Shown: piece after piece, positions 34,920 through 35,743 of the stretch | Numbering within the stretch: the first letter of the stretch is position 1 | Layout of the letters: each line of letters starts with the position of its first letter | Assembly (NCBI GenBank): GCA_012522415.1 | Contig: JAAYKM010000020.1 | Span: forward strand, 1 to 37,889 | DNA from: Deltaproteobacteria bacterium | Lineage (GTDB): Bacteria > Desulfobacterota > Syntrophia > Syntrophales > JAAYKM01 | Direction: 5' to 3' | Length of the DNA: 37,889 nucleotides | Notes under the pieces: generated by a model | What the model was told of the DNA's origin: nothing | What the model saw: only the letters and a program-made list of their open reading frames with translations | Database searches by the model: none | Program-made: the position numbers and the translations under genes

Positions 34920-34989
34920 ATCGCAATGACGGGATATGGTCAGATGCCAAGGGATGGCCGAAAACAGGGGATGCAGAAAAGTTAAAACC

Positions 34990-35017
34990 AAAGGCAGAGT
35001 CCATGGACTCTGCCTTT
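34990..35017 (-). terminator. Strong palindromic terminator of the selenoprotein gene
   Basis: AAAGGCAGAGT (34990-35000) and ACTCTGCCTTT (35007-35017) are perfect 11-bp arms around CCATGG, itself self-complementary. It lies about 50 nt beyond the minus-strand gene ending at 35070. On that strand it is followed by GGTTTTAACTTTTC, a T-rich tail, so it suits termination of that gene. Confidence 0.65.
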
Positions 35018-35069
35018 ACCGGGCATAATGTGTCAAAAGCGACTTTAAAACCTGCTTAGGTTTATCCGC

Positions 35070-35636
35070 TTACTTCAAAAAACTGTACGGGTTCGCCCGC
35101 ATGGCCCACTGGCTTTCGGGGAATTCGGCGGACAACCGGTCGTGGATGCCGATCAGGTCGGCCGCATTCTTCGTCGCGAGGTAATCCGAAACACCCTTCA
35201 TATAGACCGCCTCCGGTGTCTGGAAGCTCTTCGGGAATTCCGCGAGGATGCGGCCAAAGTATGCAGCCGCTTTTACGCGGTCCGATTTATTGAAATAGGC
35301 CTTCCCCATACCCAAAAGCAGGGAGGGGATCAGTTCCTGGGGCCAGAAAAAACCCAGGGTGCGGTTGTGTTCCACGCCTTTTGCATCCAGGATCAGCAGG
35401 GACGGCGTCCACTTGATGCGGTATTCGACGGCCAGTTCGTGGTCGACGGAGGAAATACGGAGGGGGATAAGATTTGTGTTGACGAACTCGCTGACTGCAT
35501 GATCTGGGTACGCGACCGCGTCCATCCTTTTGCAGCCGATTCAGTTGGGGTTGAAGAAATCGACAAAGACCAGCCTGTCCTCTGTTTTGGCCTTTTCCAG
35601 CCCGTCCTCGAATGACGTAATCCAATTGATCGACAT
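35070..35636 (-). CDS. Thioredoxin-fold protein, probable UxxC selenoprotein
   Basis: From ATG 35636 (AAAGGAGG upstream at ideal spacing) the frame reads MSINWITSFEDGLEKAK, then LVFVDFFNPN, an in-frame TGA at 35543-35541, then IGCKRMDAVAYPD, and continues to a TAA/TGA-type stop at 35070. Counting the TGA as residue 32, the protein has 188 residues. The TGA falls at the first position of the thioredoxin CxxC motif (U32-I-G-C35), and from memory homologues have CIGCKxMD there. After it come WTPSLLILD with the cis-proline and a helical TPR-like tail (SLLLGMGKAYFNK to the end). A SECIS-like hairpin follows the TGA. It is likely a cytoplasmic redox protein. The alternative is a nonsense-mutated pseudogene, or a shorter product starting at ATG 35525 without the active site. 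Confidence 0.75.
35501..35526 (-). promoter_or_regulatory. SECIS-like hairpin after the in-frame TGA
   Basis: On the minus strand ACGC pairs with GCGU around a GGUC tetraloop whose first base is 23 nt past the UGA. GG/CC and GAU/AUC extend the stem through small bulges. Bacterial SECIS elements are hairpins directly downstream of UGA with G and U in the apical loop, and E. coli fdhF has AGGUCU there. The fit in place and loop is good; the stem is imperfect. Confidence 0.5.
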
Positions 35637-35715
35637 GGTGCGTCCTCCTTTCTGGTGGGGTGGTTTCTTTGAATTCCCGAGCGATTGTCCTTTCACGGCA
35701 ATGAAAACATGATAA

Positions 35716-35743
35716 AATTTAATCGCTATAAGATAAATGTCAA
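35716..35743 (-). promoter_or_regulatory. Sigma70-like promoter of the selenoprotein gene
   Basis: On the minus strand a perfect TTGACA (35743-35738) is followed after 16 nt by TAAATT (35721-35716). Transcription would start near 35709, about 73 nt before ATG 35636. Confidence 0.5.

Follow-up and report, generated by a model that had tools for sequence, protein, structure and literature searches.

Does a TGA codon inside an otherwise open gene end translation, or is it read as selenocysteine (Sec), and what kind of protein would then result? The locus lies on the minus strand of a stretch of 37,889 nucleotides from a deltaproteobacterial contig, referred to here as the window. We conclude with high confidence that the gene encodes a genuine UGA-recoded selenoprotein, a predicted soluble thiol-disulfide oxidoreductase of the thioredoxin fold with a Sec-Ile-Gly-Cys site and a short C-terminal TPR-like module. 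At the level of sequence comparison, this reading is carried by the conserved UGA, the Cys orthologues, the Sec machinery of the genome, the fold prediction and a hairpin found across the family. The coordinates of all features are collected in Table 1.

Table 1. Features of the selenoprotein locus (positions in the window)
Feature	Positions	Strand	Remarks
Selenoprotein CDS, 188 residues, UGA read as Sec	35070..35636	-	ATG 35636 to TAA 35070; full length kept in 115 Sec homologues
UGA codon for Sec32, first residue of the UIGC redox motif	35541..35543	-	TGA in 115 of 151 distinct homologues, Cys in 32
Shine-Dalgarno AGGAGG	35644..35649	-	7 nt upstream of ATG 35636
Promoter-like TTGACA-16-TAAATT	35716..35743	-	no better than chance
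Intrinsic terminator hairpin, 13 bp	34989..35018	-	3' of the selenoprotein gene
SECIS-type apical hairpin, register B (ACGC-GGUC-GCGU, outer UGG/CCA)	35506..35524	-	loop 35514-35517, starts 23 nt after UGA
Thioredoxin-fold domain, residues 1-105, Sec32-I-G-Cys35, Pro78	35322..35636	-	Pfam, AlphaFold2 and DsbD-gamma match
C-terminal TPR-like helical module, residues 106-188	35073..35321	-	TPR_6/YfiO and BamD/YbgF matches

The gene and its reading frame

A preliminary description of this DNA had presented a gene interrupted by TGA alone, with a perfect Shine-Dalgarno sequence, a promoter on the minus strand and a strong terminator. The TGA is indeed the sole stop inside the frame, and the translation around it reads FFNPN-U-IGCKRMDAVAYP. 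The Shine-Dalgarno sequence and the terminator were found as described, whereas the promoter is not supported: the -35/-10-like site matches 10 of 12 bases, yet 0.6 such sites are expected in shuffled sequences, so that the match is not significant. Coding quality, also claimed to be continuous across the TGA, proved to be so, with GC at the third codon position of 0.74 on either side and dN/dS values against the nearest relative of 0.20 upstream and 0.12 downstream of the UGA. By dN/dS, both sides are under purifying selection. Rfam gave zero matches within the window.

That the TGA is a nonsense mutation, a sequencing error or the scar of a pseudogene in an ordinary CxxC gene is barely conceivable, for the genome is a draft of 158 contigs and this single TGA is the only defect, but we rejected the idea because the same TGA recurs in 115 distinct homologues of many genera, none with another internal stop, and because selection is purifying on either side of it.

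It is also very improbable that translation really ends at the TGA and that a shorter protein is made from Met38 (ATG 35525). As the preliminary description anticipated for automated calling, an ORF listing under genetic code table 11 yields only a 151-residue frame from this ATG. However, a Shine-Dalgarno-like motif of at least four bases precedes an in-frame start located 5' of the Sec codon in 115 of 115 Sec homologues, and is absent before Met38 in 109 of them. Residues 1-31 are conserved (dN/dS 0.20), and a product starting at Met38 would miss the first strand of the fold together with its active site, in agreement with the earlier claim that the short form loses the active site. The internal start was rejected on the Shine-Dalgarno pattern and the conserved residues 1-31.

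A separate observation concerns the region past the stop codon. A terminator-like hairpin (TCGCCCTGTGCAGTCCCCGCCTTAACTGCACAGGGCGAG followed by a T-run) is strongly conserved in the homologous loci L007-L014, within about 100 nt of the stop. Its CCCCGCC loop is constant, and the changes in the two arms of L009 match each other. In genomes that have the exact pattern, it is present as a single copy and only 3' of this gene; this hairpin has no Rfam match.

Conservation of the UGA and its cysteine counterparts

A search of 100 related genomes gave eight more homologues of 36-86% identity, each with exactly one stop, a TGA. In a scan of one genome per species, 66 relatives were found with TGA at this codon in 66 of 66; most are from Desulfobacterota, and a few are from MAGs that bear the labels Nitrospirae, Acidobacteria, Nitrospinota and Brocadia and may be mis-binned. 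Further homologues came from whole-genome profile searches of the phylum and of the order of Trichlorobacter. Although the patterns of the species scan included a Cys-form motif, Cys forms surfaced only in the whole-genome searches, and the species scan alone would therefore overstate how exclusive Sec is in the family.

After removal of duplicates, 151 distinct homologues remained, in which the active-site codon is TGA (115), Cys (32) or neither (4). Since the TGA is conserved in 115 distinct sequences, its occurrence by chance is ruled out. In all of these it is followed by xGC, giving UIGC in 104, and no second internal stop is present (0 of 115); Pro78, where the cis-proline of thioredoxins normally lies, is kept in 115 of 115. 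The preliminary description had held that the TGA replaces the first cysteine of the active site (NPN-U-IGCK), and the alignment bears this out, with relatives carrying Cys or, mostly, TGA at this codon.

The Geobacterales Cys orthologues number 20 (19 CIGC and one CIAC), of which 19 are from one genus. When the active-site column is masked, a quick tree places them in a single clade (SH-aLRT 100) within the Sec sequences, and this tree requires at least six state changes against about 33 with shuffled labels. A single Sec-to-Cys replacement in Geobacterales is thus well supported by the phylogeny. The Sec machinery did not have to be lost for this replacement, because selA is present in all eight Cys-form Geobacterales genomes checked, and these orthologues constitute a natural Sec/Cys comparison through which the reason for keeping selenium here becomes directly testable. 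The three genomes checked that lack selA carry non-Sec forms, CVGC or CxGS.

Several variants deserve mention in their own right. Two sequences inside the Sec clade, L011 and L012, have lost the redox motif (LTDS and VTDS) and kept the remainder including the TPR part, which suggests a role independent of the active site. Two full-length paralogues in which CFLS and CYFC stand where the Sec form has UIGC (L021 and L023) lie on contig C27 of the window's own genome, at about 3.8-4.3 kb and 16.1-16.7 kb, so that this genome keeps both Sec and non-Sec versions. The homologue searches also returned, as weaker matches, short thioredoxin-like genes of a single domain whose in-frame TGA falls in a different UxxC motif: L148 and L149 with GUPHC, of which L154-L156 are Cys forms, and L150-L153 with DWUxxCKKM and apparent signal peptides.

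Selenocysteine machinery and the SECIS-type hairpin

The machinery that the preliminary description had proposed to look for is present in the window's own genome: selA scores 494 bits, with an N-terminal piece lying at a different contig end, selB scores 347 bits over its full length and selD 380 bits, and the tRNA-Sec carries the anticodon UCA. The selA gene is split between the end of contig C27 and the start of C102, where the translations abut; it is an assembly break and not a broken gene. The selD gene (L033, C29:18225-19151) has an in-frame TGA in the motif GAGUACKIGPG and is itself a selenoprotein candidate.

A published bSECIS model describes a stem of at least 4 bp, an apical loop of 3-9 nt with G in its first two positions at 16-37 nt from the UGA, and a minimum free energy of -7.5 kcal/mol or lower (PMC13188914). 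Among 40 non-redundant members, a hairpin of this geometry at 23-24 nt spacing was found in 38, and one with an energy at or under -7.5 kcal/mol in 34. The mean hairpin energy of the Sec members is -9.5 kcal/mol against -5.1 kcal/mol in synonymous shuffles (p 4e-10, a value that ignores relatedness), whereas the hairpin of the Cys orthologues does not differ from its shuffles (-8.2 against -8.7 kcal/mol, p 0.38, n=8). The window gene's own hairpin has the right geometry but is weak, at -7.0 kcal/mol, and is beaten by most shuffles.

Two registers of the hairpin were distinguished among 111 unique sequences: A (GGAUGC.xGUxAC.GUAUCC) in 86 and B (ACGC.GGUC.GCGU), that of the window, in 22, with neither in three. 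RNAalifold on the first eight sequences gave no convincing consensus because the two registers were mixed, and scoring each sequence against the bSECIS model and synonymous shuffles worked better. Position 28 is G in 111 of 111 sequences, although a conserved Val codon begins at this base, and pair-keeping double changes in the hairpin are few. Where residues are unchanged, 60% of the comparisons between Sec members show identical codons within codons 33-47, against 39% elsewhere; the contrast is smaller in Cys members (74% against 61%). Judged from codon usage, there is synonymous constraint downstream of the UGA in Sec members.

Taken as a mechanism, SelA, SelD and tRNA-Sec would produce Sec-tRNA, and SelB would deliver it to the ribosome at the UGA (35543-35541), guided by the hairpin just downstream. 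In the finished protein, the attack on a substrate disulfide or an oxidised thiol would fall to Sec32, with Cys35 resolving the intermediate in the manner of UxxC thioredoxins. Contact with substrate or partner proteins, or their selection, is the probable task of the TPR-like part.

Predicted structure and relation to known systems

The preliminary description of a UxxC thioredoxin-fold selenoprotein is supported by Pfam and by the predicted structure. Three Pfam families exceed their cut-offs in the window protein, PF13098 (32.4 bits against a cut-off of 27), PF13899 and PF03190, and PF13098 is matched by all 35 members scanned. TPR_6 and YfiO stay under their cut-offs in the window protein and reach E<=0.001 in 27 and 14 of the 35 members, respectively. 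In the AlphaFold2 model (mean pLDDT 96.4; input of 35 window and locus sequences), residues 1-105 adopt a thioredoxin fold in which Sec32 opens the active-site helix, immediately before residues 33-42, and Pro78 takes the usual cis-proline position. The helical tail matches the TPRs of BamD and YbgF. Two refinements are made to the earlier reading: the last 80 or so residues form a TPR-like helical module, and the family has very probably been reported before.

The protein is most likely a cytoplasmic thiol-disulfide reductase, where both the reductase direction and the location are inferred; by eye, no obvious signal peptide was seen in the window protein, which is why it is placed in the cytoplasm. 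There are no conserved gene neighbours across 69 loci, so that the context points to no pathway.

As to its identity, genomes G036, which we take to be Syntrophus aciditrophicus, and G530, presumably Geobacter uraniireducens, both carry a family member with TGA. Of the 11 PF13098 places in G036, the family gene alone contains an internal TGA. None of the genomes searched was recognised as that of Geobacter metallireducens. A 2006 survey reported a 'thiol:disulfide interchange protein' selenoprotein, one each in S. aciditrophicus, G. metallireducens and G. uraniireducens (Zhang et al.; PMC1794560), and a 2026 review assigns the family of that name to PF13098 with a UxxC motif (PMC13188914). Because the domain and the motif are the same, the organisms presumably so, and the TGA is unique among the PF13098 places of G036, our family is very probably the published one (reference sequence WP_011366075.1), a match made by these features. 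The UIGC motif is printed in none of the relevant papers searched. Compared with the three sequences of the survey, 115 distinct Sec members are described here; the present analysis adds the size of the family, the TPR part, the conservation of the SECIS element and the one Sec-to-Cys replacement.

The family is still poorly annotated. In NCBIfam release 20 the window protein reaches the cut-off of no model, and the best matches of the 35 members scanned are DsbD, TsoB, thioredoxin and TPR models, with no model of their own. Pipelines therefore probably start these genes at an internal Met, and annotation probably truncates them in more than 100 genomes with loss of the active site.

The best solved-structure matches of the thioredoxin domain are DsbD-gamma and DsbH. 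DsbD-gamma gives the best superposition (Z 13.9, 105 residues, rmsd 1.9 A, 22% identity); unlike DsbD, however, the window protein is without a membrane domain or an obvious signal peptide, has Sec for the first Cys and bears a TPR-like tail. The full-length DsbD model, comprising gamma and membrane domains, is matched in its gamma part only, at 32 bits against a cut-off of 330. Similarly, the C-terminal DsbD-like part of TsoB (NF045694, rhodanese/DsbD fusion-like) is matched by 35 of 35 members scanned (E<=0.001), whereas the window protein, without a rhodanese or membrane part, scores 31.6 bits against the curated cut-off of 805.

The order of domains, thioredoxin and then TPR, is that of YbbN/CnoX, and these proteins (3qdn and 3qou) are the top Foldseek matches. 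It is conceivable, if rather unlikely, that the protein is a chaperedoxin like CnoX and holds unfolding proteins with its TPR part, their thiols being kept reduced by the Sec site. Caulobacter CnoX combines an active CxxC with constitutive TPR chaperone activity (PMC8129009), and stand-alone genes outside any conserved operon would suit a general role. On the other hand, the whole-length superposition on YbbN/CnoX is poor (rmsd about 11 A, TM 0.43), identity is 9-11%, and the thioredoxin domain, with its active Sec motif, is nearer to DsbD-gamma and DsbH. The TPR part is also much shorter, with about six helices after the thioredoxin core in the model against ten in the TPR of CnoX. A thiol-disulfide reductase with a short TPR-like module thus remains our preferred reading. 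We only tentatively entertain the broader proposal of a selenium-dependent, chaperedoxin-like family, mainly of Desulfobacterota, in which an active UxxC would be joined to a client-binding TPR in an architecture unlike that of functionally studied selenoproteins, and in which Sec would be ancestral and exchanged for Cys in Geobacterales with the machinery kept.
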